Source: a virus
DNA length: 41,291 nt
Strand: one strand, 5' to 3'
Virus record (IMG/VR): IMGVR_UViG_3300042345_000322
Span: 1 to 41,291 of that record
The first letter of the stretch is position 1. Each line of letters opens with the position of its first letter. Under the pieces are notes generated by a model that saw nothing but the letters and a program-made list of their open reading frames with translations, was not told where the DNA came from and searched no databases. A program made the translations under genes and the position numbers. This document shows positions 9,939-28,300 of the stretch, piece by piece.

Positions 9939-12900
9939 TTATTCAAACCTATTATACTTATTCACTTTTTTTTCTGATTCAAATCTATTATACCTATTAA
10001 CTTTTGTTCTTGATTCAAACCTATTATACTTATTAGCTTTTTTCTTTGGAGCAACAATAGCAGCTCCCTCAGTTGAGTAATATTCCTCACCATCTTTAAT
10101 AGCATCCATTCTTTTCTTCAACTCTAATGTTATTTTTGCAGATTCTGCTCTTTCAATTCTATATGGAGAATCATCACCAAATTCAATTTCATAGTTATCT
10201 TCATCATTTCTTTTAAAGTCTGTTAAATTCTCATAACCATATTTGTCTAATATTTTTTTCTTTATTGCTTCTTCTTTGTCATTAAAAGCTTTTCTATATT
10301 CAGGGTCTTTTATTCTTTTTATAGCATTATTTATTTCTTCTTTTGTATATTCTCCAATAGACCTCATTTCTTTTAAAGACGATATTTTTTGGCTATCTGT
10401 TAAAGCAGTTTTTATTTCTCTAGCTTCCGTCTTTGCAGCTGTTTCTTTTGTTTCTTTTTTTAATTCTTTATATACTCCTTCCATAACAATTTTTCTAAAG
10501 TCTTTGTAAAAAGGAACAACTCCTGCTAATCCTCCTATTTCTAATGGTAGTCTTCTATACAATTCTTTTGCTCTTGTTAGCTTCGCTCTTTCTCCTTCAG
10601 GTTTAGAACTTGTTGCTAACTTATATGCTAACTCAGCAGTCCCAATTGCAGGAGATAAAGGACCTGCAATAACTTTAACTAAATCTGTAAGTTTGTCAAC
10701 TTTTCCTTCTTGTAATTGATTAAATTGTATAGCATCTCTATAAGGGTCATACTCTCCATCTCTAAGACCAATTGCTTCACCATATGCTTCATTTGCTAAT
10801 TCTATTAAAGCATTTTCCGCTACTCTAATAAAGTTACCGAAGTATCTTCCAAATACTAAAGTTGTTATTGATGACAAAATTCCTTGAGATATTTTTTGTT
10901 TTGTTGTTTTATCATCATCATCATCATCACCTCCAAAGCCTAATGAGCGTGCTACTACCGATAATCCCTCTGAAAACAATCTAGTAAACACAGAATAAAT
11001 TGTCATTCTTAATGTAACAGCAGCTAAAACTTGTATTCCTTCTTCCCGCGATATAGTTCCATTTCCTACTAACGCCCTAACACCTTCTCTAGCGGTATAG
11101 TATTCTTGAACAGTAAATTTATTCATGAACCTATTAAATTCTTTAAGAAATATAACTCCACCTTTATCATCTTGTCTTACTACATTTTGTAATATACCCA
11201 TATAAGAGTTCATACTAGAACCTGCGGATATTACTTGCTTGTCAGCCATAGTAGTTGCTTTCTCTAAGGCATCTTTGTATTTATCCATGTACTCTTCATC
11301 ATTCTTTATGATTTTATCAAAGTCAGGTTTAATACCTACTTCTTTTTCAAATGTACGAGAAAAAGAACCAAACCAAAGTCTTCTCATTATTACTTGGTCA
11401 GGCTTAGAGATTAAATAATCTGCTACCCCTGCTACAACATCAACATATTGTTTTCCTGTTTCATCCCAAGCTTGTCTAACACCATTTCTTATTTCTGTTT
11501 TTGTGTTTTTACTTTTAGAACTTCTATTTGCATTAGCTGTCAATTCTACAAAAGGACTATTTATTAAACTTGTTGGCTGAACTCTTGATGTTACATTAGA
11601 TTTTAAATTCGTCATAATAGACTTTCTGTCTACTCCTTCTATTTCTTTTATTTCTTTTGAAACACCCCTTTTCATATCTCTTGGATTGTTTAATAGAACA
11701 AAAGCAATATTTGAAGAAAGTTCAGCAGCAGCTCTTGTGCCACTTGCAAGCATAGCCCTATATCCTTGTCTTTTAAGAAATTCTAGCCATTTAGTTGATT
11801 GAGTAAAGTTTGATTCAAGCAAATCTTTTGTAGCTGTATTGTAAGCACCTGTTATAGCATTAAGAATATCATATTGGTCTTTTATATTTGCTTCAAAAAT
11901 CTTTTTTTCATCTAAAGTCATCTCTTTCTTTAGAGTATTTTTTTCCTTTTCTTCTAATAAAGTCTTTGCATTTCTTAATGTTTTTCTAGCTGTTCTCACA
12001 GGCTCTGTCATATGGTAATTTAAAAGTACCGACCTTGAACTGCTATTTGTTGCATAGAAAGGGTTTAAGTATACAGGGTGAACTTTTCCATCTCTTTCCT
12101 CTAAGTTCTTAGAAACAGTACCCGGGTCCATGTTGGCATTTATGTTATTAATTTGGTCTGTTGTTTCACTTGCTGATAATATATCAGACTCATTAATTAC
12201 AGTATAAGAGATATAATTTTTTAAAGGAACTATTTTTTTACCATTTATAACAGTTGCTGTATATGTAGCAAACTTTGTCATTCTATTATTTATTTCCTCA
12301 AGTTTTTTTAATCCATTTTTTTCAGCTTCATTGAAAGAGTTATATAATTTATCTATATCTATTTCACCATTTTTTTCAAACTCTTTCTTTATAGATTCCA
12401 TCTGAGCAATATCGAGGTCATTGTAACCACTTTTCTCACTATTTCGTTTTGCAAACTTAATGGTTTCATCTAAGGTTTTCATTGCCTGATGAACTTGATT
12501 ATTATTTGGATTTGAATCGTATTCAAGTTGCATCATATATACCATCATTTTGAATTTAGATAGTATTATCTTATTAGGTTCATTTTCAAATGATGTTGCA
12601 ATTCCTCTTTCTATTTTGTCTAACTCATCTTGAATTAATGTTATTGCAGATTGATAGCCCTGTTGTGCTTTAGCAGATTCATTAAATACAGAATTAAAAA
12701 TATTTTTAGTTTTAAAGTCGCCTAATTGTTGGTCTATATTAAATAAAGGAGCAACATTAATTCTTTTCGATACACGTTTTGCTAATGTTTGATTTATTTT
12801 TTTAGCTATATTCTTAAAATTTTCAGGAATAGATGATTCTAATAGAATACTTTTTTCTATAAAGTTTAACTTCTCTACCATCTCCTGTGTAGCATTTGAT

Positions 12901-15900
12901 ACAAAGCCATTGTTTATGTTATCAATGACTCTAAGTAAATCTTTTAAATCTTTATTATTTAAACTTTCAAGTGTTTTTTTATTCTTTAAAAGCTCTTGTA
13001 GTCTTTTTACTAAATCTCTTTCTAATCTAAACTCATCGCCAACAATCTCATCCAATGTTATTGTGGTATTGTTTATCTCATCAATTAACTCTGCTTTCTC
13101 ATCAGCAATCTCTTGCTCAGTCATTTTTGCTTTAACCTTTGGTCCTTGTATCTTTGACTTAAAGGTTTTCATTAACTTATGTTCAGACTGATTGATAATA
13201 CCAACCTTTAACATGTCATCTAATGTTTCTGCATAGTTTACAACCTTATCTTCTACAACCTTATCTTCAAAGTTATCATACAACTCTTTCAAGTCAGATA
13301 CTCTCTGTTCATTTGACTCAATACTTTCAATAATTTTATCTATGCTTTTATTTAAGTCATCTCTCTTATTTAATTTTAAGACTGCATCTCTCTTAGATAA
13401 CATCTCAACTATCTCAGAATAAGACTCAAATACATCGCTTGGTATTAGCTTTGCATTAATACTTAACAAGCGTGATAGTGGGTCTAATAAATCAGATGAG
13501 ATATCGCCAAGCTTTGGTAAATTTTTCTTTGCATTTTTTCTATTTGTGTTTGCTTTATCTACTTTGGCATCATAGCCTGCAATACCAATAATTTTATCAA
13601 CATAGTCTATAAACTTATCATATTGCCTTTGGCTCAACACATTGAACTTTGCAAGGCGTAGCATAATTGATTTCATTTGAGTAGAATCCAATGTATCAAC
13701 CTTACCTGTTAGCATCTTACGAACTACTCTTTCTGCTTCTATTCTTAATTTTTCAGATTCTTTTCTGTCTAAAGATATTGCTAATTTTACAGCTTCTTTA
13801 AATTCAGCAAGTCTATCTTGCGTATCTTGAAGGTCTTGTTTATTTGTCTTTTGCTTAACAAATGTAGTGTCCAAGAAATAATTAATTTCTTTAATAAACT
13901 GCTCTCTCTTTACCTTTGGATGTCTTTTTTTGTGTTTGGTGTACATCCTAGCAATGGCTTCATCTAACGAGATGCTTTCTGCTGCCTTAACTAATGCATT
14001 TATCCCTTTTAAAATAAGTTTCATTGTTGCTAATGAAGTTCCAACACCTATACCTGCGTAGGTAAATTTGTTTAAACTATTGAGTTTAGCAATAGCATCA
14101 TCAATATATTCTGATAATCTCTTTTTATTTTCAGCAGAACTTATTTTTAAACTTCCAAGTTTGTTAAATTCGTCTTGTAATTCTTGTGCTTTTTTATTTA
14201 AATCACTTACAAGTCCTTTATATGTGTCATTTTCTTTGCCGTATAACTCTTCTTTAAGGATGAGTTCAGCATCTTCAATATCTGCTTCAAGGTCCATTAT
14301 TGTACCCTCTTTTCCTATAGCTTGTTTTAAAACTTTAATTTGTTCACGAATAGGTAAAATTACTTTTCTTGCATTTTCTTTTGCTGTTTCTATATCTTTA
14401 TTTATATCATCTATTTCTTCTTGAATAACTTCAATATTATTGAATATAGTATCTTCTCCCGTTGTTGATTCTTTTGCAGGTGCAGGTGCTTCTTCTTTTA
14501 AACTTTTTATTTCATTTATTAATTCATCAATATCGGAGTGCCACGTTTCTATAACTTCATCTCCTTTACTCATATCTGTATAGGCCCAAACATATTGTTT
14601 AGGATCGCCATAGTTGTCTGTAGCATCAGATGTAGCATCAGGGTCTTCATACTTATTTAATCCATATACTACTCCATCAATATTAATAACAAAACCTTGG
14701 TCCATACTCAATGAAAACGCATTATCAATTGTTGTTCTTTTTGGTTTAGATGTAGGCTTTGGAACTAATTTTTTTGCTTCATAAAGATTTCTTGCCATAT
14801 TTCCTCCGGGAAGGGATTCTCTTGGAATATTACCGTCAATCCAATCTTCAAGAAAAATGTCTCTCTCATCTTCTGACATATTTTTAAGCATCTCAGCTCC
14901 ACGAGAAATCTTTTCTGCTTCAGTTTCTTCTTTTACAGGTTCTGCTTTAACCTTTGATTTAGAAGTGACCTTTGCCTTGGTAGTTTCAACTTTAGCAGGA
15001 GTTATAACGTCATCAATATATACTTTTGTTTTGTTTTTAGTTTCAACAAACCTTCCTCTTTTCTCATCAGTTTGTATTGTTAGATTAGCTTCAGTAGTTG
15101 CACTTTTTGGAGTGAAAGTCTTTACTTTTTTAAGTTTAACTTTTGCCGTTCCTTTCTTTTCATCTATGACTATACTAAACTCTGTTTCATTTGCACCTCT
15201 TACTCTTGTACCTTTTTCTATAGGTTCAGATTTAGGTTTAGGTTTCTCAACTATCACTGTTTCCGGTATAGCTTGTCTTTCTCTAGCATTTAATACTGTA
15301 TTTGCAGATTTTATTTTTGCTTTAAGCTCGTTTATTTTAATTATTTCTTCATCGCTTGGCTCTTCAATTTTTTGTAACTCATTTAACTTAGTAACTTGAA
15401 GCTGCTTCATGAATATAATTACATCACTTTTTTCCTCCTTAATATTCTTCCAAGAAAACTTAGTTGGTGCTTCTTTTTTAGCTGTAGTAGTTTGCTTACC
15501 CCTTGCTTTTGTTGCTCCCGCTTTAACTATAGGCGCGGCTTTTTCTTTATTTAAGAACGCATCTAAAGATTTAGGAGATTTTCCTTCATTTCCTGCATCC
15601 CAACCTATTTTTTTATCAGAATCAACTCTGTCTTTAAATGCAGACATTTCATCTGCAAATTGTTGTTCATCCCACTTAACATTATTTAAAAATGCATTGT
15701 AGTATTTTAAACTTAATCTTTTTGCTTCTTCTCTTAAAGATTTGTCTACATTAAAATCACGTTCTATTTCATAGAAATAATGCCCAAGACCATCAGGTAT
15801 TGCCCATCCAAATTTTTGTTGAGTTTCCTCTAACTTTTGCTTTGCTTCTTCTTGTTGTTCGGGAGGGAAAAATTTATATCCATCTTTAGCCAAGTACCCT

Positions 15901-18900
15901 TCAGGGGTCATGACTTGAACTTCAGAGATAACTCCATTTTTAGCTCTTATTTCAATAAGTCTTTTTGGATAACCTAATTCAGTTGCTTCATTAATTCTTC
16001 TTAATTGACTATCTTTTTTATTTCCTTCATCAATATTTTTAAAAACTAAATTTGCTTCTTCATCTGTGGGAACAATAATATTTACCCTTGCGCCATCACC
16101 TAATTTTTCAGTGTCTGCACTATACCACCTCAATGTTTTTACAGAAGCTCTTGTAGGTCTTTTTATTGCGAATTTAGAAACAAAACCCTTTAGTCTTCTT
16201 ATTGATTTATCAGCAATAGATTCGACTTCTTTTTTTGCTTCTTCAAAATCCTTTTCTTTGGTTTCAAATGTTTCTTGAACAATGGGTTGAACGGTTGATG
16301 TTAATTTAGCTAATCTTCTCTTTTCAGCACTATTTAAATCACGTCCCTTTTCTTGTAAAGCTATTTGCTTATCCCTAATAGAACCTAATTCTAACCCTTC
16401 TTCTTGGGCTTTAATTACATCTTCCTTAACTTCTTTAAAAATGTCACTTCTATCGTACGGTCTTTCTTCGGTGCTTGTGTCTCCATCGTTTTTTGAGCCA
16501 ACGTATCTTGACTTTCTGTATCTGACTTCGGTGGAAACAACATCGCCATCCTCAGTAAGTCCGAGTGCATTAATGACTGATTGCTTGATTTTTTCGTGTC
16601 TTTTTTCATAATCTTGTTTTAATTGGGTTTCGGTTTGATTGTCTTCAAATGATATAATTGATACTTTTAGTTCATTGTTATTAAAACTATAATCATTTAT
16701 ACCATTTTCTTTTAATAATTTGCCTAAATCAGCTAACTGTTTAGCAGTAGGAGTAGATGCAAATTTATAAAAAATTTGTGGATAATGCAAGAAACCTCTA
16801 TTATCTGAATAAGAAAATTTAGGTTTAATCTTTTCATTTATAATATCATCACTAAATTCTGATGTTGTTTCAATAATAATTGCATCTTGAGAATACTTTT
16901 CCCCAAATTCTTGAAGGAGTCTACTTATTGCTTCTGTATCTGCATCCTCAGTTATTTTTAAACTCATATTCATAGATGGCTCTGCAACTCCACCCCAAGC
17001 ACCACTATAATTATCTCTAAATAGAACTTCAACTCCTTTTATCTTACTTATTCCTTCTGTTATTTCTTTTTTAACTTGACCAAGAATTTGATTTTCTAAT
17101 TTTTTAAGTTCTTTTTCATCTTCATTTGTTACAACTTTAGATTCCTCCATTTTCTTTACTAATGCATCATACTTAAGGCTTAGTTTCTGCATTCTTTTTG
17201 TAGTTGAATCAAAATTTCTAGTTGTAGCAGGGGTTATTAATGCCGCAACATTTCTAGCATACTTTGGTGTCTTTCCTTTTGCTTTAGCTTCCTTTTTAGC
17301 AATTTCAGCTTCAATTCTTTGTTTTTCTGTTAATACTACTTCTTCGGCTTTACCTTCTTTGATAATAGCTTGTTGACCTGATTTCAATATAGTTCCTTTA
17401 CCTCCTATATTTAAAGCGTAGTCAATAGCTTTTCTTTTTGAATCAATTCCTTTACCTTCTGTAATGACATCATCTTCTAATATTAAATTAGCTATTGTCC
17501 CTATTGATATTCCATTTTCTATGGCATCATCAATCTGTTGGTTTAATTCATCATTACCTGTGTCTATGCTTTCTTTCTTAGCTATAGCATCTAAAATCTC
17601 TAATGAAAAAGAATCAGGAGACGAGGCTCTTAATGAAGCTCTAACAGTATTTAATTCTTTGTCATCTAATACTTTTTTAGAAATGACTTTATAGTCATTA
17701 CTAGTCATCTGTTTTGTAGTCTCAGAAGGAGTTACTTCTTCTTCGACTTTTTGACCTTCTTCGGTAAGGACTTGAGATTCTGTTGTGGGTTCTCCTTGGA
17801 CCACTTCTTCGCCAACTGTGGTTGTTGGCTGTACAGGTACTTCACCTGCTGCTTGCTCTTGAATGGCATAATCTTTTGCTTCTTTACCTGTTAATGTATA
17901 TGTGTAACCTCCTTTTATTGTTTTAATTATTTCTTTACCAATAGGTATCCCTAATATTTTTCTTACAAATGGAAGTTCTCTATCTTCTGTTTTTTTGGCT
18001 CTATCTCTAAATTGCTCAGGAATTTCTTCTAATGTTTCTGCATTAAGTACCTTTACTTCATCATCTTCAAGTGAAGATATTTCTTCAGGTATAGTTGCTT
18101 TAATGGCGTCTTCTTCTTGCTTTTTCTCGGCGTCTTCTACTTTTTGGTTTATTTTGTTAAGTTCTGTTTGCGCTGCTTTTCTATTTATTTTTTCACCATC
18201 TATTATTACTGCGCCTTTTTGTTTAAGTGCATTTTCTAATTTAGTTGCTCTTTCAATATTATTATCATATAAGACTTGTAATGGCAATGTTCCTAATTTA
18301 TCATTGATGTCTTTTATTCTATCATTTTTTTCTTTACTTAATGCAGGGTCTTTGCCTATAACTTCTTTCTTTAATCTATTTCTTTCATTTATTAGGTTAA
18401 AAGCTATTATTTTTGCTTCGTCAGATATATTCTCATCTATTGAGTTAAAAACACCTTCAACCAAATCAATGTCATTTAATGCACTTTGAGCTTCACCCTT
18501 TGTCATTGTTCCATTTAACATTTGTGTCTTTAGATTTGAAACAATAAGTTTTTTAAACTCTTGGTCGGAAGAAAAATCCTTAAAGAACTTTAAATCCTCT
18601 TCATTATATAATGATATCTCACCATTTATTAATCCTTGAGAACCCACCAATACTGTAGACATAGCTACACCACCGATAGCTTCTGCTAATGCTCCTTCAC
18701 CAACTGCCATTAAACCTTCTGAAAAAGATTGAGGAGTTCCAAATGCTTCGCCTCCTGTTAGTTCTTTTAAGTCTTCTCCGGTATAAGCCGCTCTTATAGA
18801 ATTATATGCTTTTTTTATTCCAATGTCAGCAACTAATGTTTGAATAGCACCTGTTTCTGCTTCTGCAAATCCACCGCTAACAACTTTTAAAACTCCTTTA

Positions 18901-21485
18901 CCAACTAAACTTTTAACTTCTTTATTTACTATATTTTCAACTGCTTCTCTACCTAATTTTTTTGGAACAATTTTAGCAAACTGACCTAGCATATATTTTC
19001 CTAGAATAGCAGATTTTCCTGCCGTCATGTTTTTTAAACCAACGTTTTCAAGGTAACCCATAACAAGTGCATATGGCACAGCAACTAAAGCTCTGTCTGC
19101 CTCTGATGTTGTTTCAAAGTCAGTATCATTAAGCATCTCTTCATTAATTGCATTGTATGACATATTTGCCATAGACCCAAATGCTGCCACTTGCCCTACA
19201 ATAGGTATTGCTCTTGTAAGCATTGAAGGTAATGATGCTGCAACACCAACTAAAGACTGCCCAACAAATCCTAAATTTTGCTTTGATTCTTCAGTAGTTA
19301 AGTCTGAGCCAAAAGTTTCTATAATTGCTCTTTTATTAGCAGCAATTGCATTTTTTTGCGCATTATTAAGAAATATATTTTTTATCTCTTGTTCATTGTA
19401 TCCTTTATCTTTATAGTATTGTCTTTGTTGTGGTGTTATTATTTGAGCTTCTGTTGCTATTTTCTTTTCTTCTTCTCCTGATAAATCTTTTCCTAAAGCA
19501 GGAACTATATATGATAATGGTTCTCTCACTTCATCCATAGCAACAACAAATGCATTTGTAAAGTTTCCAAAAAATCCACCTGACTTTGCTTTTTCAGCTA
19601 CATATACTCCTGCAAGGGCATTCATTCTCTTTTGAGTTGCAGCAACATTTTTTGCAGCAACATCTAATCTTTGAGCTTCTGAACTAAGACTTTCTACTGC
19701 ATCATTATATTGTTCTTCAGTTAGATTTCCATTTTTAGCATCTAATTGTAATTTTTCTTTTCTTTTATTAAAATTATTAATATCACGTTGCAAGTCATAT
19801 TGAGTGCCCGTCATATGATTTAAATTATCTCCAATAAGGTCTTTACTATATCCTCCTTCTATTTTTGCTTTTGCCGTTTTTATTGCTTCTTTGTCGCCAC
19901 TTCTTGTTGCAATGATATATTCATCATATAATTTATCATATTTTTCTCCTTTTTGCGCATCGTATTTCTTTTGTTCTGAAAGAAATAATTTATACTCTTC
20001 ACTATTATTTAATTTATTTTCAAATTTCTTTAAAGTATTTGCATTTTCATAATACCTCTCGTCTTCTCCAAAAATAGCTGTTGCTAATTTTCCTGCTAAA
20101 CCTGTTCCTGCAGTAGTAGAAAGATTTGCATTTTCACTTCGCCTTCTTTTTATCTCCTCTCTTTTTTGTTGAAAGGTTAATTCTTTGAATGCATTTTTAT
20201 AGTCTTCAGAGTCATAATATTTATTATTTTCTATAGCACTTTTAATGTCTAAATTAAATTCTTTTTTACTTGAAGTATTATTTTTAATTCTATTTACAGC
20301 ACTTAAGTCATCTTCATTTTCAGCAGAAGCATTAAGTCTTAAATATGATTGTAGCTTAACGGCTTGGTCTGCATTCTTTTCTAACTCTTTTGAATTACTG
20401 TTGCCTATACCCATTCCTGTAGGACTTGAAAATGCTCCACGAGTAGAATTGCCAACATTATTAAATGAGAATGTCTGAGATGGAACTCCATTGTTAGGAG
20501 TTACTTTTATATAATCTCCTGCACCTATTTGTTCAAAAGTAAAGCCCATACCTTTAAAATTCTTCTCAAGCATTTGTTGAGCGGACTCTTCAGATTGAGC
20601 AAGGAAATTTGAATTTACTTTTAAGAAAGGGTCTATTTCCTTTGGCTTAACTACAATGGTTTTCTTCGCATCTATATTCTTGCCGTATCGTCTATTTAGA
20701 GCGCTTATAGAGCCTTCATTTGATATTAACGACCATTCTGTTGCCCCGGGCACTAATCGTTCCCAAGAATTGTTTTTTATTCTATATTTATTATCCTTTT
20801 TTTCAGGGCTATTATCGTAATCACCAAAAGTTTCATAATCTGCATCTAAAGATGCATTCTTACCAAACTGTTTGTTTAATGCTTTTATCCGAGCATCATC
20901 TTCAATAATTCTTTTTTTAGGTACATTTTTAATTGCATCTAAAGAATTTTTTGAAGTCCCGGGTGTTGCAATATCTTGACCTTCTCCTGATGGATTAATA
21001 AACATTCCGCCGCCATATCTTCTGTTTTCGTAAGTTCCACCAACAGGCACATATGATTCTTTAGATTTTTTTATTGTTTTTTCTACTTCAGGATTTAATT
21101 CATACCAATTCCCATTGCTAAACTCGTATTGATTTTTTTCTTTGCCGGGATACCCTGTAAATATCTCAGAGCCTTTATCAGCTACGTTTCTTAAATCCTT
21201 TGTTTTAGCTATCTCTTTAGTAGCTTTTCTTTCAGATTTCTGAGATGCCGATGAACCACTTCCCAAAGTTGAACCCCAATTTGAACTTTTTTTTTTAATC
21301 ATAGAATTGAAGTCTTCTAAAGAACGAAACTCAGAGTCTATACCTTTAACGTAGCTATGAACTTTATTTGAATAGTCCTCACTGCCCATTTTACTTTTAA
21401 AATCATCATAAGTAGTTCTACTATGATATTCTGAGTCTTGAGAACCAATGTAAGCGTATAATTTTTTTAAATATTCGTCATTCAT
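9939..21485 (-). CDS. Giant polyvalent internal virion (ejection) protein
   Basis: Encodes 3848 residues. N terminus: two ~30-residue repeats (YLKKLYAYI..YDDFKSKM, then NKVHSYVKG..LEDFNSMI), then two copies of a W-x-x-L-x-P / ALN-x-x-(F/Y)-GKN module within about 120-275. Residues about 740-955 are glycine/alanine-rich and hydrophobic, possibly membrane-inserting. Residues about 1760-1910 resemble a RelA/SpoT-type nucleotidyltransferase: GDGARVNIIV (1796-1805), EVQVMTPEGY (1855-1864), GHYFYEIER (about 1901). Long charged helices fill about 2300-3100. Residues about 3230-3620 resemble the C-terminal region of large polyvalent phage proteins, with FGGDDDDDDK inside. It ends in three 12-residue repeats. 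Last gene of the late block, 15 bases after the 523-aa gene. Probably packaged and injected with the DNA. I found no RNA polymerase motif. Confidence 0.8.
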   Translation of the reverse strand: MNDEYLKKLYAYIGSQDSEYHSRTTYDDFKSKMGSEDYSNKVHSYVKGIDSEFRSLEDFNSMIKKKSSNWGSTLGSGSSASQKSERKATKEIAKTKDLRNVADKGSEIFTGYPGKEKNQYEFSNGNWYELNPEVEKTIKKSKESYVPVGGTYENRRYGGGMFINPSGEGQDIATPGTSKNSLDAIKNVPKKRIIEDDARIKALNKQFGKNASLDADYETFGDYDNSPEKKDNKYRIKNNSWERLVPGATEWSLISNEGSISALNRRYGKNIDAKKTIVVKPKEIDPFLKVNSNFLAQSEESAQQMLEKNFKGMGFTFEQIGAGDYIKVTPNNGVPSQTFSFNNVGNSTRGAFSSPTGMGIGNSNSKELEKNADQAVKLQSYLRLNASAENEDDLSAVNRIKNNTSSKKEFNLDIKSAIENNKYYDSEDYKNAFKELTFQQKREEIKRRRSENANLSTTAGTGLAGKLATAIFGEDERYYENANTLKKFENKLNNSEEYKLFLSEQKKYDAQKGEKYDKLYDEYIIATRSGDKEAIKTAKAKIEGGYSKDLIGDNLNHMTGTQYDLQRDINNFNKRKEKLQLDAKNGNLTEEQYNDAVESLSSEAQRLDVAAKNVAATQKRMNALAGVYVAEKAKSGGFFGNFTNAFVVAMDEVREPLSYIVPALGKDLSGEEEKKIATEAQIITPQQRQYYKDKGYNEQEIKNIFLNNAQKNAIAANKRAIIETFGSDLTTEESKQNLGFVGQSLVGVAASLPSMLTRAIPIVGQVAAFGSMANMSYNAINEEMLNDTDFETTSEADRALVAVPYALVMGYLENVGLKNMTAGKSAILGKYMLGQFAKIVPKKLGREAVENIVNKEVKSLVGKGVLKVVSGGFAEAETGAIQTLVADIGIKKAYNSIRAAYTGEDLKELTGGEAFGTPQSFSEGLMAVGEGALAEAIGGVAMSTVLVGSQGLINGEISLYNEEDLKFFKDFSSDQEFKKLIVSNLKTQMLNGTMTKGEAQSALNDIDLVEGVFNSIDENISDEAKIIAFNLINERNRLKKEVIGKDPALSKEKNDRIKDINDKLGTLPLQVLYDNNIERATKLENALKQKGAVIIDGEKINRKAAQTELNKINQKVEDAEKKQEEDAIKATIPEEISSLEDDEVKVLNAETLEEIPEQFRDRAKKTEDRELPFVRKILGIPIGKEIIKTIKGGYTYTLTGKEAKDYAIQEQAAGEVPVQPTTTVGEEVVQGEPTTESQVLTEEGQKVEEEVTPSETTKQMTSNDYKVISKKVLDDKELNTVRASLRASSPDSFSLEILDAIAKKESIDTGNDELNQQIDDAIENGISIGTIANLILEDDVITEGKGIDSKRKAIDYALNIGGKGTILKSGQQAIIKEGKAEEVVLTEKQRIEAEIAKKEAKAKGKTPKYARNVAALITPATTRNFDSTTKRMQKLSLKYDALVKKMEESKVVTNEDEKELKKLENQILGQVKKEITEGISKIKGVEVLFRDNYSGAWGGVAEPSMNMSLKITEDADTEAISRLLQEFGEKYSQDAIIIETTSEFSDDIINEKIKPKFSYSDNRGFLHYPQIFYKFASTPTAKQLADLGKLLKENGINDYSFNNNELKVSIISFEDNQTETQLKQDYEKRHEKIKQSVINALGLTEDGDVVSTEVRYRKSRYVGSKNDGDTSTEERPYDRSDIFKEVKEDVIKAQEEGLELGSIRDKQIALQEKGRDLNSAEKRRLAKLTSTVQPIVQETFETKEKDFEEAKKEVESIADKSIRRLKGFVSKFAIKRPTRASVKTLRWYSADTEKLGDGARVNIIVPTDEEANLVFKNIDEGNKKDSQLRRINEATELGYPKRLIEIRAKNGVISEVQVMTPEGYLAKDGYKFFPPEQQEEAKQKLEETQQKFGWAIPDGLGHYFYEIERDFNVDKSLREEAKRLSLKYYNAFLNNVKWDEQQFADEMSAFKDRVDSDKKIGWDAGNEGKSPKSLDAFLNKEKAAPIVKAGATKARGKQTTTAKKEAPTKFSWKNIKEEKSDVIIFMKQLQVTKLNELQKIEEPSDEEIIKINELKAKIKSANTVLNARERQAIPETVIVEKPKPKSEPIEKGTRVRGANETEFSIVIDEKKGTAKVKLKKVKTFTPKSATTEANLTIQTDEKRGRFVETKNKTKVYIDDVITPAKVETTKAKVTSKSKVKAEPVKEETEAEKISRGAEMLKNMSEDERDIFLEDWIDGNIPRESLPGGNMARNLYEAKKLVPKPTSKPKRTTIDNAFSLSMDQGFVINIDGVVYGLNKYEDPDATSDATDNYGDPKQYVWAYTDMSKGDEVIETWHSDIDELINEIKSLKEEAPAPAKESTTGEDTIFNNIEVIQEEIDDINKDIETAKENARKVILPIREQIKVLKQAIGKEGTIMDLEADIEDAELILKEELYGKENDTYKGLVSDLNKKAQELQDEFNKLGSLKISSAENKKRLSEYIDDAIAKLNSLNKFTYAGIGVGTSLATMKLILKGINALVKAAESISLDEAIARMYTKHKKRHPKVKREQFIKEINYFLDTTFVKQKTNKQDLQDTQDRLAEFKEAVKLAISLDRKESEKLRIEAERVVRKMLTGKVDTLDSTQMKSIMLRLAKFNVLSQRQYDKFIDYVDKIIGIAGYDAKVDKANTNRKNAKKNLPKLGDISSDLLDPLSRLLSINAKLIPSDVFESYSEIVEMLSKRDAVLKLNKRDDLNKSIDKIIESIESNEQRVSDLKELYDNFEDKVVEDKVVNYAETLDDMLKVGIINQSEHKLMKTFKSKIQGPKVKAKMTEQEIADEKAELIDEINNTTITLDEIVGDEFRLERDLVKRLQELLKNKKTLESLNNKDLKDLLRVIDNINNGFVSNATQEMVEKLNFIEKSILLESSIPENFKNIAKKINQTLAKRVSKRINVAPLFNIDQQLGDFKTKNIFNSVFNESAKAQQGYQSAITLIQDELDKIERGIATSFENEPNKIILSKFKMMVYMMQLEYDSNPNNNQVHQAMKTLDETIKFAKRNSEKSGYNDLDIAQMESIKKEFEKNGEIDIDKLYNSFNEAEKNGLKKLEEINNRMTKFATYTATVINGKKIVPLKNYISYTVINESDILSASETTDQINNINANMDPGTVSKNLEERDGKVHPVYLNPFYATNSSSRSVLLNYHMTEPVRTARKTLRNAKTLLEEKEKNTLKKEMTLDEKKIFEANIKDQYDILNAITGAYNTATKDLLESNFTQSTKWLEFLKRQGYRAMLASGTRAAAELSSNIAFVLLNNPRDMKRGVSKEIKEIEGVDRKSIMTNLKSNVTSRVQPTSLINSPFVELTANANRSSKSKNTKTEIRNGVRQAWDETGKQYVDVVAGVADYLISKPDQVIMRRLWFGSFSRTFEKEVGIKPDFDKIIKNDEEYMDKYKDALEKATTMADKQVISAGSSMNSYMGILQNVVRQDDKGGVIFLKEFNRFMNKFTVQEYYTAREGVRALVGNGTISREEGIQVLAAVTLRMTIYSVFTRLFSEGLSVVARSLGFGGDDDDDDKTTKQKISQGILSSITTLVFGRYFGNFIRVAENALIELANEAYGEAIGLRDGEYDPYRDAIQFNQLQEGKVDKLTDLVKVIAGPLSPAIGTAELAYKLATSSKPEGERAKLTRAKELYRRLPLEIGGLAGVVPFYKDFRKIVMEGVYKELKKETKETAAKTEAREIKTALTDSQKISSLKEMRSIGEYTKEEINNAIKRIKDPEYRKAFNDKEEAIKKKILDKYGYENLTDFKRNDEDNYEIEFGDDSPYRIERAESAKITLELKKRMDAIKDGEEYYSTEGAAIVAPKKKANKYNRFESRTKVNRYNRFESEKKVNKYNRFE
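9942..10046 (-). repeat. Three 12-residue tandem repeats at the C terminus of the giant protein
   Basis: The last 35 residues are three units on a 36-base period: KKKANKYNRFES, RTKVNRYNRFES and EKKVNKYNRFE, then the stop. The core N-(K/R)-Y-N-R-F-E is fixed while flanking residues and some third positions vary. Confidence 0.9.
10911..10928. repeat. (ATC)6 trinucleotide tract inside the giant gene
   Basis: Six perfect ATC units on the + strand encode six consecutive aspartates between GG and K at about residue 3520. Slippage by whole units would change the length of the acidic run without shifting the frame. Confidence 0.85.
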
Positions 21486-21500
21486 AAACCTTAGTTTTTA

Positions 21501-23072
21501 TTATATTCCTGCTGCTGCTGTTGAACCTTTTCCTGTACTTGATGTACCACCATCTTGCTTTTCTTGAATAACATCGCTTCTAAATTCTTTTGATATAATC
21601 TCCCCTTTTTTATTTTTATCCGCATAATCTTTAAATGTTTTGTAGTTTTGACTTGTAGAATTAATTGCATCATTAACATCACTTATTCCTGCTAAACCTA
21701 ATGCTGCACCTTGTAACCAATCGTTAAAAGGGATTGGTTTATATACAATTTCACCATTTACCTCGGTTTTTGTTTTAAATGGATAGTCCTTTGAAGAAAC
21801 TTTATTTTTAAGAATAACACCATCTTTATTTACATCATACCGCTCAATAACTAATACTCCATTTTTTCTTGATACACTTTTAATAGTTTTATCATAATCT
21901 CGTAGATAAGGAGTTACAGCTTTTATTTCTGCTTCAGTTCCACCATATAATTTAGCAAGATTATTAGTCATAGTTGTTTTATATTCTTTTTCATCTCTAC
22001 CGCCACGAGATGCAAGATATTGCCATTCTTGTTGTTGAGGAGCATCTTGATATTTACCTATCTCCTGTTGCCCTACTTTTCTATCTATCTTTTGAATTAC
22101 TTGTTGTCTTAAATACTCAAGAGCTTTTTCTTTTTGCTCCTTACCATATTTAGTATTAAAGTCAGGCATAGGAGTTCCACTACCACCGGGTTCTGTTATT
22201 AACAATATTTTCTTTGGGTCTTTATCAGCTTCTTCTCTTGAAAAAGTATAATCATAATCTTCATTTAAAGTATTTGTAAGTATTGAAGACACATTTAATG
22301 GTTGAACTAATAAAGAGCTTAATTGCTTATCAAGAGCACCATAAAAACCTTTTTTTAATTCTTTATCTTCTATCTCAGTAATTGACCCACCTCTTTGACG
22401 ACTTGCCGCTATTAATGCACTAGTAATCTCTTCACCAATTCCTGCTTCAACACTTGTTGCTGCTGCATCAGTATCAAAGTAATCATACTTGGCTTTTATT
22501 CTTGTTTGTAAATTTGACGCTGAAACGGTTTGATATGTGCCATCTTTTTGTTTTACACTCATCAATACCAATCCTGTTTTAGGGTCTATAATTGGCTTTG
22601 CATTTTTAAAGTTTCCATATCCCTCTGCATCTTGAACTAAAAAAGACTCAAGGTATTGAGACTTATTAGCAGGGTCATTAGATTTCATCCTTGCCATTTT
22701 ATCTGCATACTCTGCTTGATAATCTGTACTCAAATCAAACATTGTTTTTGTTCCATTCTGAACGTTTTGCATAAAAACAACATTATCTCTTTCAGATATC
22801 CTACCATTTTTAAATGCTCTTTGATTAGCAAGTATTTGTTGTTGCATCTGAGATGCATAGTCTGCTGTAAATTCAGTCATATTCACATCATCACCTACGG
22901 GATGTTCATCTAAATATTGATTGAATGCTCTTACTTGGTCGTCATACGCTTCCTTTTTTGCCTTTCTTGTAGCAAGTTGGTCTGTAACTAAATTTGATAT
23001 ACCAAGACCAATGTCAGCGTAATTTACTTGACTGTCAAGGTCACGTTCTTGGTATTTATAAAATGTTGCCAT
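21501..23072 (-). CDS. Putative internal virion protein
   Basis: Encodes 523 residues. It opens with YKYQERDLDSQVNYADIGLGIS and a helical, charged region rich in Gln, Asp and Lys, without signal peptide or membrane segments, then mixed alpha/beta sequence, and ends in a Gly/Ser/Thr/Ala-rich tail (QDGGTSSTGKGSTAAAGI). The start resembles N termini of internal core proteins encoded upstream of giant ejection proteins in podoviruses, but I cannot name a family. The position between the 263-aa and 3848-aa genes, with gaps of 3 and 15 bases, makes an injected-core role likely. Confidence 0.65.
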   Translation of the reverse strand: MATFYKYQERDLDSQVNYADIGLGISNLVTDQLATRKAKKEAYDDQVRAFNQYLDEHPVGDDVNMTEFTADYASQMQQQILANQRAFKNGRISERDNVVFMQNVQNGTKTMFDLSTDYQAEYADKMARMKSNDPANKSQYLESFLVQDAEGYGNFKNAKPIIDPKTGLVLMSVKQKDGTYQTVSASNLQTRIKAKYDYFDTDAAATSVEAGIGEEITSALIAASRQRGGSITEIEDKELKKGFYGALDKQLSSLLVQPLNVSSILTNTLNEDYDYTFSREEADKDPKKILLITEPGGSGTPMPDFNTKYGKEQKEKALEYLRQQVIQKIDRKVGQQEIGKYQDAPQQQEWQYLASRGGRDEKEYKTTMTNNLAKLYGGTEAEIKAVTPYLRDYDKTIKSVSRKNGVLVIERYDVNKDGVILKNKVSSKDYPFKTKTEVNGEIVYKPIPFNDWLQGAALGLAGISDVNDAINSTSQNYKTFKDYADKNKKGEIISKEFRSDVIQEKQDGGTSSTGKGSTAAAGI

Positions 23073-23075
23073 ATA

Positions 23076-23867
23076 TTAAGGTTGAAAAGGATTTACCTGA
23101 AAATCAGGATAGAAAGAAGTTACAGGATTGCTTTGCATCTGATTTCCAAGTATGTTTATTGGTTGTTGATTTTGGTTTAATGTAGGCATACCTGTTCCTG
23201 TAGGATTCCATTGAATATTTGAACCTGTTCCTGTTAATTGTTTTCCGTTTGAACCTATAACAGCATTTTTAGCAAGCCCTTGTTCTGTTTGAGATTTATT
23301 ACCACCACCTGATTTTGCATACAAAGGAACTAAATTAGCAACCTGTGTTGCCGCACTTGTAACTCCTTCCCATCCTTGAGCTGTTGCTTGAGCTGCCATT
23401 TCTTGAGCATTTCTTGCTGCCATTTGTGCACCTTCAACTTCACCTAAATCTAATTGTGTTTGTAAATCTCTTAATCTAGACTCTTCCGCAACTTTTAATC
23501 TTTCAATCTCAGTAAGTTCTTTACCCATCTCTGTTCTTATCGCTCCTTGCGCTTCATTCTGAGCCATTTGAACTCTGCCTGCTCCTGCTGCCGCTCCTCT
23601 TTCAGATTCTTGTGCAGCATCTGTAGCCTGTGTGCCTTGAGAAATCATCGCTTCTCTTTGTAGTTCGTAAGGTTCTTTTTGAACTGACAATGCCTCCATA
23701 TAGTTTACATCAAGTCTTCCACGAGCTGCTGCCATTGCTTTATCTGCTTCTGCTTCTGCTTGTGATTGAAGTTTTTTTTGTTTGTTTGCTTGAGTAAAAG
23801 ACATTGCAGTGCTAGCACCTGTTGCTGCTATACCTACTCCTGCTGCTATTGATGTTAATGCTGCCAT
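23076..23867 (-). CDS. Putative internal virion protein, alanine-rich (gp14-like)
   Basis: Encodes 263 residues. The N terminus is small-residue-rich and hydrophobic (LTSIAAGVGIAATGASTAMS, about 4-23) and could insert in a membrane; the next 150 residues are alanine-, glutamine- and glutamate-rich helices with coiled-coil character; the tail is Gly/Asn/Pro-rich, ending VNPFQP. This architecture matches the small internal core protein of T7-like podoviruses (gp14 type) and its crAss-like counterparts, thought to enter the outer membrane during DNA ejection. It is followed by two larger internal proteins, as in such phages. Similarity is architectural only. Confidence 0.65.
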   Translation of the reverse strand: MAALTSIAAGVGIAATGASTAMSFTQANKQKKLQSQAEAEADKAMAAARGRLDVNYMEALSVQKEPYELQREAMISQGTQATDAAQESERGAAAGAGRVQMAQNEAQGAIRTEMGKELTEIERLKVAEESRLRDLQTQLDLGEVEGAQMAARNAQEMAAQATAQGWEGVTSAATQVANLVPLYAKSGGGNKSQTEQGLAKNAVIGSNGKQLTGTGSNIQWNPTGTGMPTLNQNQQPINILGNQMQSNPVTSFYPDFQVNPFQP

Positions 23868-23868
23868 A

Positions 23869-24279
23869 TTATAATTTTTTTATCATTTCTACTTGGTAAT
23901 TATCACCCTTAACATATCCAAGCTCCTCATACTTCTCAATGAGTGGTCTATGTTTTATAAGTGCATATGAATATTTAAACCCTAAGTTAGTAGCCATCGT
24001 TGTTAAATTTTTTAACAATAATCTTATCGCCTCTGTCCTGTGTGGTTTTTTTCTATATTGTTTATTTGAAATAATCCAATCAACCCAACAAAGATTTGAG
24101 TTTGACGCATATAAAAATCCTGCACAAATAGGAACATCGCCATCTAAAATGATGATACCACCTTCTCCATTTTGAGGTAAGAAATCTTTTGGAGGAGCTA
24201 CCCATCCCCAATCTTCCCACCATCCAAGAAGAATGTTGTCGTAATCATTGCTATTAAGTGGTCTAATGTTAAAGTCCAT
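23869..24279 (-). CDS. GNAT-like acetyltransferase in the tail module
   Basis: Encodes 136 residues. The fold order of GNAT enzymes is visible: N-terminal strand FNIRPLNSNDYDNI, strands GIIILDGDVPICAGFLYAS (41-59) and NLCWVDWIISN (62-72), an acetyl-CoA loop position at QYRKKPHRTEAIRLLL (74-89), and a C-terminal KYEELGYVKGDNYQVEM. The usual Q/RxxGxG/A loop is degenerate, with no glycines (RKKPHR). Genes of this kind are common among tail genes of phages and may modify a virion or host protein. It is preceded by a TATCTTTG element only 8 bases before the ATG, so it may have its own promoter and an almost leaderless message. The next gene begins 1 base after its stop. Confidence 0.75.
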   Translation of the reverse strand: MDFNIRPLNSNDYDNILLGWWEDWGWVAPPKDFLPQNGEGGIIILDGDVPICAGFLYASNSNLCWVDWIISNKQYRKKPHRTEAIRLLLKNLTTMATNLGFKYSYALIKHRPLIEKYEELGYVKGDNYQVEMIKKL

Positions 24280-24301: not shown

Positions 24302-25123
24302 TTAAGGGAAACTTTTCATTAACTCGCTTTCAGTAGCAAATAATTCTACTTTGGTAGCATAGTTATTTGATAATTCAAATAAACAATAATGACCCAATAC
24401 TCCGTGAGATTCTGCGATAGAGTTTTTATTAAATAAAAAGTATTCTGTTTGCGAAGGTATAATAGTAGTCCAAACAGGTGTGGTGTCTATAACAATATAG
24501 TTAAGTCCTGCAACATAGTCTTGAACAACACTTGTTACAATCCCTGCTCCTGTAGCGGATGATGAAAAGTAAACAATATCTCCAACACTTATTATACTTC
24601 CTATAGCAATAAGAGGATTTATTGAAAAGTTAATTTGTGCTGTAGTTGCAGTAAAAGTAACACTTGTACTATTTCCTATTCCATTAACACTCCTTAAAGG
24701 ATATTCAGGCGCAGACATTGGAGTAGTTCCACTATTCCTTACAAACGCAAACCAAGTGGCTTCTTTTTCTTCAAAGTCACTTTGACCTATAAACCCTGTA
24801 TATTGTAAGTCTGTTGTCATTGTTGCAGACCAAGGAGCATCGCCCACTAAGTCCATTGTCTTAAATAACTTGTTCTCAAGAGGCAAGTCATTTATAACAC
24901 TCTTAAGTGTTGTTGGAGAAAAAGGATTTAATTCAGGGATATTTTGTTCACACCATTGTTGGTAAAATGTATTTCTTGCAGTGTTTGAGCTGTGTCTATA
25001 TAAATTACCACCCTTAAAAGAATAGAAATAGTTATTCATTCCTATCATCCAATCAGGATTGTAAGAGTAGAATGAAGGCCATCCTTGAACGGCAGGGCTA
25101 TATGTAAGTGTTTTAAAGCTCAT
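24302..25123 (-). CDS. Tail structural protein of Bacteroidota podoviruses
   Basis: Encodes 273 residues. The N-terminal part has TYSPAVQGWPSFYSYNPDW and GMNNYFYSFKGGNLYRH (about 28-44), a pattern I recognise from a virion protein common to crAss-like and related phages, where it follows the muzzle or fibre genes. The remainder is beta-rich with Ser/Thr-rich strands and ends in SELMKSFP. No enzyme motif. It starts 2 bases after the stop of the 62-aa gene. The exact place in the tail is unknown; a role in a tail tip or spike is plausible. Confidence 0.7.
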   Translation of the reverse strand: MSFKTLTYSPAVQGWPSFYSYNPDWMIGMNNYFYSFKGGNLYRHSSNTARNTFYQQWCEQNIPELNPFSPTTLKSVINDLPLENKLFKTMDLVGDAPWSATMTTDLQYTGFIGQSDFEEKEATWFAFVRNSGTTPMSAPEYPLRSVNGIGNSTSVTFTATTAQINFSINPLIAIGSIISVGDIVYFSSSATGAGIVTSVVQDYVAGLNYIVIDTTPVWTTIIPSQTEYFLFNKNSIAESHGVLGHYCLFELSNNYATKVELFATESELMKSFP

Positions 25124-25326: not shown

Positions 25327-28300
25327 TTAAAGTGGTGGACAATCACATTCAGAAAATTCCATAGCTAAGTCTGCAGCGTCACCTCCACTATAAGTTAAAT
25401 TTGTTCCCTCACCAACGCAAATTAACTTTGAACCACCTGCACTAATATTTGTAGGCGAACCAAAACAAGTGGTAGGAAGGGCAGTTACATTTATGGTACT
25501 AGCAGAATTATTTGTTGCAAGAATAGTATAGCAACTTGATACACAACATTGACACTCATTTAATTGAGTAACAAGACATGTTCCTGAGTCAACTATCTCT
25601 GAAAGACAAACAAATAGTCCTGAATTATTTTTAACTGTTACATCTTCTACTAAATTTCCATCGCAATCTATATAAGAAATTAATTGTGTGCTTACTGAAT
25701 AAAAATAATAAGTAGAACAGCAAATTCCTGTACATCCACATTCTTGAAATTGAAAGTCTAATAATTCAACATCTGCAATTCCTTGTGGTATAGTAAAGTA
25801 TCCTAAATTTAAGTAATCATTTACACAAAGACTTCTTGTACTCATAGGATTAAATATAACAGATGAAGGAGTAGTTGCTTCACAATTTACTAAACCTAAA
25901 AACTCAATAGTAGCAGCAGAAGTGCTTACAACTTCAAAATTTACACATTGATTGCTACAACAATAACATCCTAAATAGATATAAGTAAAAGATGGCTCTC
26001 TAAAATCTTCAGGGAAATCTCTAGCACATATAAAAACCGCTCCATAAGCAGGGAAATCATATCCATAAGTAGCAGGTAAATCTCCAATTTGAGCAGTGTT
26101 TCCATCACAATCAATATATAAAATATTACTCCATGTTCGAGCATTATTATTTACAACAAGCCAAGAACCACAATTACAAGGAGGAGGAGTATAACAATCT
26201 GTACAAGCAGTTGTACAATCATCTTCACTAAAACATAACTCTACAGCCGTACTTTGTCTTAAATCCCAAATTAAATATAAGAAATTCTGTAAGGCAGGAG
26301 TAGTAAAAGTTCCTTTCCATTGAGTCAAGTTTGGTTGTGTAAGTGGAGTTATATTTGTAGCAACAGATAAAAGTGTTGTAATATCTATTTGATTATTTTG
26401 ATAATATGTATTACTTGTATGATATAAGAATTTATTAGGAGGGTCTGTAAAAACAAAGTCATCAAAGCCTATTTTATTTGTATATATATTTGTATCTACT
26501 CCGGGATATGGAAAACTTCCTTGACCCCAAAAACCTGCGTCAATGTTATAGTATGACACAAGAGGATTAGAACTTGGGAAAGCAAAAGTAACTTGATTGC
26601 TTTGCAATGGCGATGAATATGGTATTGTAGTGTCAGTATAATTATATTGATTATGTATAAACATTCCCGCATTTGAACCGTCAGTAATTACTACTTCAAC
26701 TAAAAATATTTCATTACAATCTTGACATTGATTGTCAATATCAAAAGTAAGGTTTGCACCTGCGGTAATTGTTATAACAATTTGTAATTCAAGTACAAGA
26801 GGATTATTTACTGAATAAGGAATATTAATAGTTTGACCTGTATCTATAAAACCTGATGTAGTTGTAGTCCCATCATAAGTTACATCTACAGTAACTCCTC
26901 CTATTTGTACAAAACCTGTTTGCAATACAATATTTCCATCTGCAATGCAATTATTTAATTTTATACAATAACTTATTACTCTTTCAGGCTTACCTGTATT
27001 GTCTATATTAAATGAATTTATTTGACCACATCCAATACATTCTATAACACTTGGTACTTGTATGTCATTACTTGTTAGTACATACTCATTCATATATGGG
27101 TCATAACCGCCAAGTTTCTGTGTAGTTTGAGCATTGATAAATTCATCTCTAAACCAAGTTCTCATTCCAAATTCAGATACCACTCTTAGTTGGTCGCTTT
27201 GCATTGAATCTCCTTGAATATGAATTACAGCACCTTTCTTTGTGTCAGTAAAATATCTATCAGCACCCCATTGAACATAACTTTCAGGGTTATGGCTTAT
27301 TCCATATTTTTCAGTTCTTGCAATTTGAGTTCCTAATACTTCAGGAACTGCAGTTAATGCTCTACCTGCTCCTGCATCTGACAATAAATTCTTTCCTGCT
27401 AACACATATGATATCTTATCTTCTTGAAGACATAAGACATCTGTTTCTCTGCCATCTAAAACATATATATATCCAAAAGAAGACTCTAAATATTTATAAT
27501 TTAAAAGTCCTAAATTAAACTCATTTAATTTATTTAAGTTGGATTCAGTATTATATATACCACTATATGTTATATCCGAAAATCTATGTGCTTCCTTATA
27601 ATCCTGAGCAGAAACAGACGTTACTCTTTCTCCAAGATTAAATTCTCTTCCTACTATTGAATCTCTAACCTTATAACTTTCAACTCCATTTCCAAAAGAA
27701 AAACAATTAAAGAAACCTGTGTCTATAATTGCATCTTGACCTAAAGCAAAGTCTTGGTTTTGTACATTTCCATCGTGTTCTCCTGTAATAGGATTTATAG
27801 CAAATGACAAATTATTTTCAAAAAACACATCGGGCAAAGCATCTATTGGAAGTGTTTCAAATATAAAATCAGGCTCTATTGCAGTTCTTTGTAATGAAAA
27901 TTTTAGTTGTGTACTAGGTTCGTTAGAATCAGTTGGACAAGCTTTTGTGCCCGACATCCAAAATTTCAACAAATTATTAGCAGGGTCGCGATTTATATAT
28001 AACTTCATATTATCTCTAGAAACTCCACTTGTTACAGTACTAGACATAGTAGCATCAGATACATTATAAAAGCCATTAAATGTTACAGACATTTGCACAT
28101 CTTGTAAGCCATCTAACGAAGCCATAATAGCTGTTTGATTTGCTTGAAACCAAGCTTCTAAACTAACATAAGATTGAGTAGCAGTAAAAGAAACAGAAGA
28201 TTGAGCAGCATTTACTTCTCTTTTTTTACATCCTGAAAAAGAACCTGCTCCAATATAAGTATATAGCATAATCTTTATTACTGAACCAATAGGAACATCA

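Follow-up and report, generated by a model that had tools for sequence, protein, structure and literature searches.

A Tas1-like RelA/SpoT-homologue domain in an exchangeable cassette of giant virion-module proteins from crAss-tailed podoviruses

We found that the giant protein of an uncultured podovirus contains, at residues ~1735-1945, a real RelA/SpoT-homologue (RSH) synthetase domain that is a relative of Tas1/Apk1. The protein (3848 aa, ATG start) is encoded at 9939-21485 on the minus strand of the window, the whole 41,291-base stretch of an IMG/VR virus record that was analysed here, and its gene is the last of the virion module. A preliminary description of this DNA had noted a single gene filling more than a quarter of the window, and the open reading frame does take up 28% of it. 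Earlier work had already described RSH domains in polyvalent and MuF proteins of phages. The novelty lies in a Tas1-like RSH domain whose acceptor motif is new and which, together with an equally new companion domain, forms a mobile cassette in giant virion-module proteins. We consider it probable that this is a virion-carried polyvalent protein that injects an RSH pyrophosphokinase of the Tas1/Apk1 branch and arrests the host early. Homology, fold, catalytic residues, purifying selection, cassette mobility and gene position are observed here; packaging, ejection, activity, acceptor and benefit to the phage are deduced.

Sequence searches, profiles and predicted fold all place the RSH domain at 15651-16283 (minus strand; aa 1735-1945). 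It had been proposed earlier that four ordered motifs mimic the RelA/SpoT core, and we located these at residues 1796, 1838, 1855 and 1901, in the order of RSH synthetases. When all PDB sequences were searched by phmmer with residues 1690-1960, the match was Tas1 (6ox6; E 2.9e-7), with a 192-residue alignment in which all motifs fall in the same order. FAT10/ubiquitin entries matched as well (E 0.004) and were rejected, since they were gone when a profile was used. An Azospirillum protein was found among plasmids by tblastn (E 8e-5), and further Azospirillum copies were found in genome contigs. A profile built from the Azospirillum proteins only, with the window left out, matches the open reading frame at aa 1744-1936 (E 1e-10); 50 shuffled versions of that frame gave no match. 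Our final RSH profile (A6, 20 rows) finds Tas1 in the PDB at 3.8e-31 and the GTP pyrophosphokinase 2be3 at 0.003. A profile made from Vibrio RSH sequences alone gives no match in the window, and the closeness of the domain is therefore to the Tas1 branch.

The predicted fold agrees. An AlphaFold2 model of aa 1715-1985 has a mean pLDDT of 87.6 and a pTM of 0.83, and Foldseek ranks Tas1 first in the PDB (E 9.7e-9, TM 0.78 on the target). The first 45 PDB matches are all RSH proteins, and by this measure the window domain has the SYNTH fold. The fold prediction suggested in the preliminary description therefore yields an RSH nucleotidyltransferase and not an unrelated fold, and the Asp, Glu and Gln whose conservation it had named as a check are kept in all phage homologues.

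Eleven residues are invariant in 16 distinct phage cassettes: K1775, R1779, K1783, D1797, R1800, Y1839, E1855, Q1857, H1902, Y1905 and E1906. The basic ATP-site motif IKRPTRASVK (16137-16166, minus strand; aa 1774-1783) supplies the three lysine and arginine positions K1775, R1779 and K1783, which are also kept in the Azospirillum proteins. The catalytic Asp motif GDGARVN (16080-16100, minus strand), with D1797 and R1800, aligns to the DxxR of Tas1, and E1855 and Q1857 (15915-15923, minus strand) align to its ExQ, so that the catalytic Asp, the following Arg and the ExQ pair of RSH enzymes are all present in the 16 phage copies and in the Tas1 alignment. Further downstream lies GLGHYFYE (15768-15791, minus strand; aa 1899-1906), in which GH..YE is common to Tas1 and the Azospirillum homologues. 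SaEAS loses its activity on the D121A change and has R124, E182 and Q184 around its ATP site (PMC12691689); by alignment, D121, R124, E182 and Q184 correspond to D1797, R1800, E1855 and Q1857. Two positions count against our main reading: Tas1 N370, in the ATP site, is Leu1843 here, and conservation at the ATP-site position of Lys353 (Tas1/SaEAS) is absent in a simple alignment. In pairs of close relatives, dN/dS is 0.05-0.12 for the RSH domain and 0.09-0.44 for the upstream domain of the cassette. Given the conserved catalytic residues and the purifying selection, the domain is very probably an enzyme; its acceptor cannot be told from the sequence.

The acceptor is obscured by the syn3 loop. 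Enzymes that make (p)ppApp from adenosine nucleotides carry GxN at syn3, and those that make (p)ppGpp from guanosine nucleotides carry SxH (PMC12226406). Neither signature is present here. The motif is GYPKRLIE (15951-15974, minus strand; aa 1838-1845), and its Y1839-E1845 segment, YPKRLIE, is invariant in all 16 phage copies. With a motif that matches the signature of neither (p)ppApp nor (p)ppGpp synthesis, the product is uncertain. The mismatch bears on substrate class and not on fold family. The Azospirillum homologues deviate at syn3 too, with SxT.

Where does such a domain come from in a phage genome? The RSH domain is one half of a mobile two-domain cassette (15552-17270, minus strand; aa 1406-1978). 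The other half is a conserved upstream domain (16416-17270, minus strand; aa 1406-1690) with an orphan fold: its AlphaFold2 model is modest (pLDDT 79), it has no PDB fold match at E <= 0.001, and neither a sequence nor a fold relative was found outside these phages. The three nearest backbone relatives of the window (L001-L003) are 51-61% identical to it over most of the protein, aa ~1275-1965 excepted, and RSH profiles have no matches in their records. The RSH domain is present in 3 of the 71 viral contigs with the C-terminal backbone (L025, L032 and L050, each with a second, upstream domain). Across aa 1406-1978 the window is 42-47% identical to these three contigs, versus 34-37% in the backbone. 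To account for the RSH label on a 71-row backbone tree, four or more gains or losses on well-supported branches are required, and the window clusters with L001-L003, all without RSH. Carriers in this tree were partly found via the cassette, so their frequency in it is not representative. Scans for the cassette and the RSH domain identified 21 carrier contigs besides the window, some of them near-duplicates. Among these carriers, L105 and L135 have the cassette in giant proteins without detectable backbone similarity to the window, and L102 has weak similarity. The upstream domain also occurs with the RSH domain absent (L110-L114); in L110 a DUF7178 match follows it. The RSH cassette looks exchangeable between giant-protein backbones, in the manner of a swappable weapon. 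A broken reading frame in L136 is more likely an assembly error; stop-codon recoding was tried as an explanation and rejected, as neither TAG read as Gln nor TGA read as Trp opens the frame fully.

The remainder of the giant protein fits the earlier label "polyvalent". Its relatives carry LPD23, ADP-ribosyltransferase (ART-PolyVal), GNAT and metallopeptidase domains and also match DUF6782, and the HExxH metallopeptidase motif occurs in 40 of 94 giant open reading frames of relatives, sometimes twice in one frame, a picture that one expects of polyvalent proteins (Iyer et al. 2017, PMC5512222). Unrelated effector-type domains are swapped between relatives in variable slots, of which the mobile cassette is one case. 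The window protein itself has no Pfam LPD match and no HExxH, and so has neither an LPD nor a metallopeptidase domain of its own by these measures. Whole-protein scans with Pfam and PHROGs gave nothing beyond the C-terminal phage family PHROG 32588 (aa 2817-3697, 3e-43), which lies largely in a conserved backbone (10416-13718, minus strand; aa 2590-3690) that is covered in about 58-69 of the 71 relatives over most of its length. Other giants among L029-L092 match ART-PolyVal, LPD23, GNAT, DUF3990 and DUF7178. At the N-termini of the window giant and most related giants we observed a short repeated motif of the GYxxxxxxFxxL type, often present twice and then followed by KKK; it might serve as a signal for packaging or targeting.

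The genome belongs to a podovirus whose tail tip is crAss-like and whose host is a Bacteroidota-type bacterium. It encodes TerL and portal. A muzzle-like virion protein of 1772 aa (25327-30645, minus strand) matches PF25731 crAss_MUZ at 5e-10 and PHROG 14478 at 4e-200, and a crAss muzzle C-terminal-domain protein (24302-25123, minus strand) matches PF25729 at 6e-11; the muzzle-like protein appears as two genes, the 1772-aa one being the N-terminal part, and the crAss muzzle model covers one protein. After the muzzle genes come a 263-aa virion structural protein (23076-23867, minus strand; PHROG 13764) and a 523-aa virion-module protein (21501-23072, minus strand; PHROG 35506), which by synteny with the Flavobacterium elemo phages hold the places of the first and second ejection proteins, and then the giant. 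The gene order in elemo phages is similar, and a 3694-aa "structural protein" (QMP87591.1) occupies the same place at the end of their virion module. It is 24.5% identical to the giant over part of the C-terminal backbone, and "structural" is a database annotation. No RSH match was found in elemo phages by tblastn; the protein is annotated with DUF3293 instead. Also in the virion module of the window is a 136-aa open reading frame (23869-24279, minus strand) that resembles a GNAT acetyltransferase by eye, a Pfam match being absent. Elsewhere the window encodes two small proteins with a DnaA C-terminal helix-turn-helix (PF08299; 2346-2648 and 8854-9342, both plus strand), a Sak-type annealing protein and PDDEXK/VRR nucleases.

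The head and tail of crAss001 contain large cargo proteins, which are believed to leave by way of the tail in a partly unfolded state (PMC10172136). From this cargo, the gene order, the muzzle genes and the "structural" annotation in elemo phages, we infer by analogy that the giant is an internal virion protein that is packaged and ejected into the host. The giant would resemble the crAss001 cargo (PMC10172136) in being a large protein transported by a virion whose tail tip is of the muzzle type. Whereas the crAss001 cargo consists of channel proteins and RNA polymerase subunits, the window giant has an RSH enzyme domain.

We propose that the middle region of the giant is an exchangeable cargo slot, which in the window phage would hold the RSH pyrophosphokinase domain of the Tas1/Apk1 branch. 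The protein would most likely be packed in the head, precede the DNA through the tail and refold in the host cytoplasm. There the domain could take pyrophosphate from ATP and attach it to the 3'-OH of an acceptor, which would be an adenosine nucleotide, a guanosine nucleotide or perhaps the end of a tRNA. ATP would be lowered, alarmones raised, or both, and host metabolism, translation or defence might be arrested at the start of infection. If so, alarmone-type toxins extend to proteins that are likely injected by uncultured crAss-tailed phages, which are seen in many metagenomes, and it becomes testable whether a phage can strike host nucleotide pools at time zero of infection. The domain has been seen moving as a cassette between giant-protein backbones, and its RSH branch escapes Pfam and has an acceptor that known signatures do not reveal.

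Could the resemblance have arisen by chance in a purely structural giant? Zero matches to the RSH region were obtained in Pfam, NCBIfam and PHROGs scans, with the whole protein or with segments, and in the Pfam scan of the full-length giant no domain reaches the cut-off. In particular, PF04607 (RelA_SpoT) has no above-cut-off match in the giant protein, which counts against our main reading; the Pfam model overlooks this divergent branch of RSH proteins. An independent profile, the PDB sequence search and the fold search agree with one another and already refute chance, to which we give practically no credence. A more serious alternative is that the RSH fold is kept and its function changed, to nucleotide binding without synthesis or to a non-nucleotide acceptor such as tRNA CCA ends. 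An invariant YPKRLIE in place of both GxN and SxH would suit such a change, as would the Leu at the equivalent of Tas1 Asn370. Strong purifying selection has preserved the catalytic Asp, Glu, Gln and Arg, however, and this speaks against a role without catalysis; the acceptor may still have changed, and as a whole we judge this alternative to be unlikely.

The enzyme might also be active and expressed late, serving against other phages or host alarm signalling, as in superinfection exclusion or counter-defence, and not in an injected take-over. Swappable effector slots are typical of conflict systems, and RSH proteins stand on both sides of phage conflicts, for example CapRel and PhRel (PMC12691689). 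Yet the gene closes the virion module, and its syntenic counterpart bears the annotation "structural". An HD_4 alarmone hydrolase was found neither in the window nor in 13 carrier records (several of them fragments); self-protection, if any, would therefore come by other means, and the lack of a hydrolase gene in carriers is easier to explain if the enzyme is inactive until after ejection. We regard late expression for such purposes as unlikely and continue to favour the injected pyrophosphokinase. A bolder version of injection, which we offer as speculation and think rather improbable, is that uncultured crAss-tailed podoviruses inject, before any phage gene expression, a pyrophosphokinase whose new acceptor site (YPKRLIE) would serve to modify a target beyond free ATP/GTP, for instance the ends of host tRNAs or a nucleotide not known so far, and the dedicated companion domain would aim or control the enzyme.

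How does this protein compare with known RSH toxins? Tas1/Apk1, a (p)ppApp synthetase and type VI effector (6OX6), is its best match in both sequence and fold, with about 27% identity, and shares the RSH fold, DxxR, ExQ, IKxxxRAxxK and the GxGHxxYE helix. Tas1 is linked to PAAR and has an immunity gene, whereas the window domain is internal to a phage giant and has YPKRLIE at syn3; Pfam scans gave no PAAR, Rhs or immunity match, which sets the protein apart from Apk1/Tas1 T6SS effectors. Apk2 is similar as an RSH pyrophosphokinase on a phage virion-associated protein (PMC12226406). This MuF-linked (p)ppApp synthetase of temperate phages stands C-terminal to MuF in prophages (PMC12226406), and its gene is followed by the immunity genes iapK and aph1 (PMC12226406). 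Unlike Apk2, the window RSH domain is internal, and the giant has no Pfam match to MuF and no HD_4 beside it, so it does not fall among Apk2-type MuF toxins. RelA/SpoT domains are known in MuF proteins, and polyvalent proteins that contain them have been reported from Spirochaetes and epsilonproteobacterial (pro)phages (Iyer et al. 2017, PMC5512222). Those polyvalent proteins likewise have the RSH domain as one of several swappable domains in a very large phage protein; here, by contrast, the phage is a podovirus with a crAss-like muzzle, and the RSH domain is Tas1-like with a new upstream domain alongside.

In the phage collection that we searched, no cassette-bearing record was found. The upstream domain had no tblastn match there, and the window RSH domain had only a false one, MT836800, which by eye is a DtxR-like regulator and was rejected. 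With the L094 sequence as query, the only tblastn match was a remote RSH relative on a contig of human faecal phage origin. Human faecal phage contig MT835636 (L118) has, at 10606-11217, a 204-aa RSH-like open reading frame that matches by profile at E 1e-23 and lies outside any giant protein. In Azospirillum, the Tas1-like RSH with SxT at syn3 is a solitary gene (L004:3866-4585; also L006, L007, L008 and L009), annotated as a hypothetical protein, that adjoins amino-acid ABC transporter genes.
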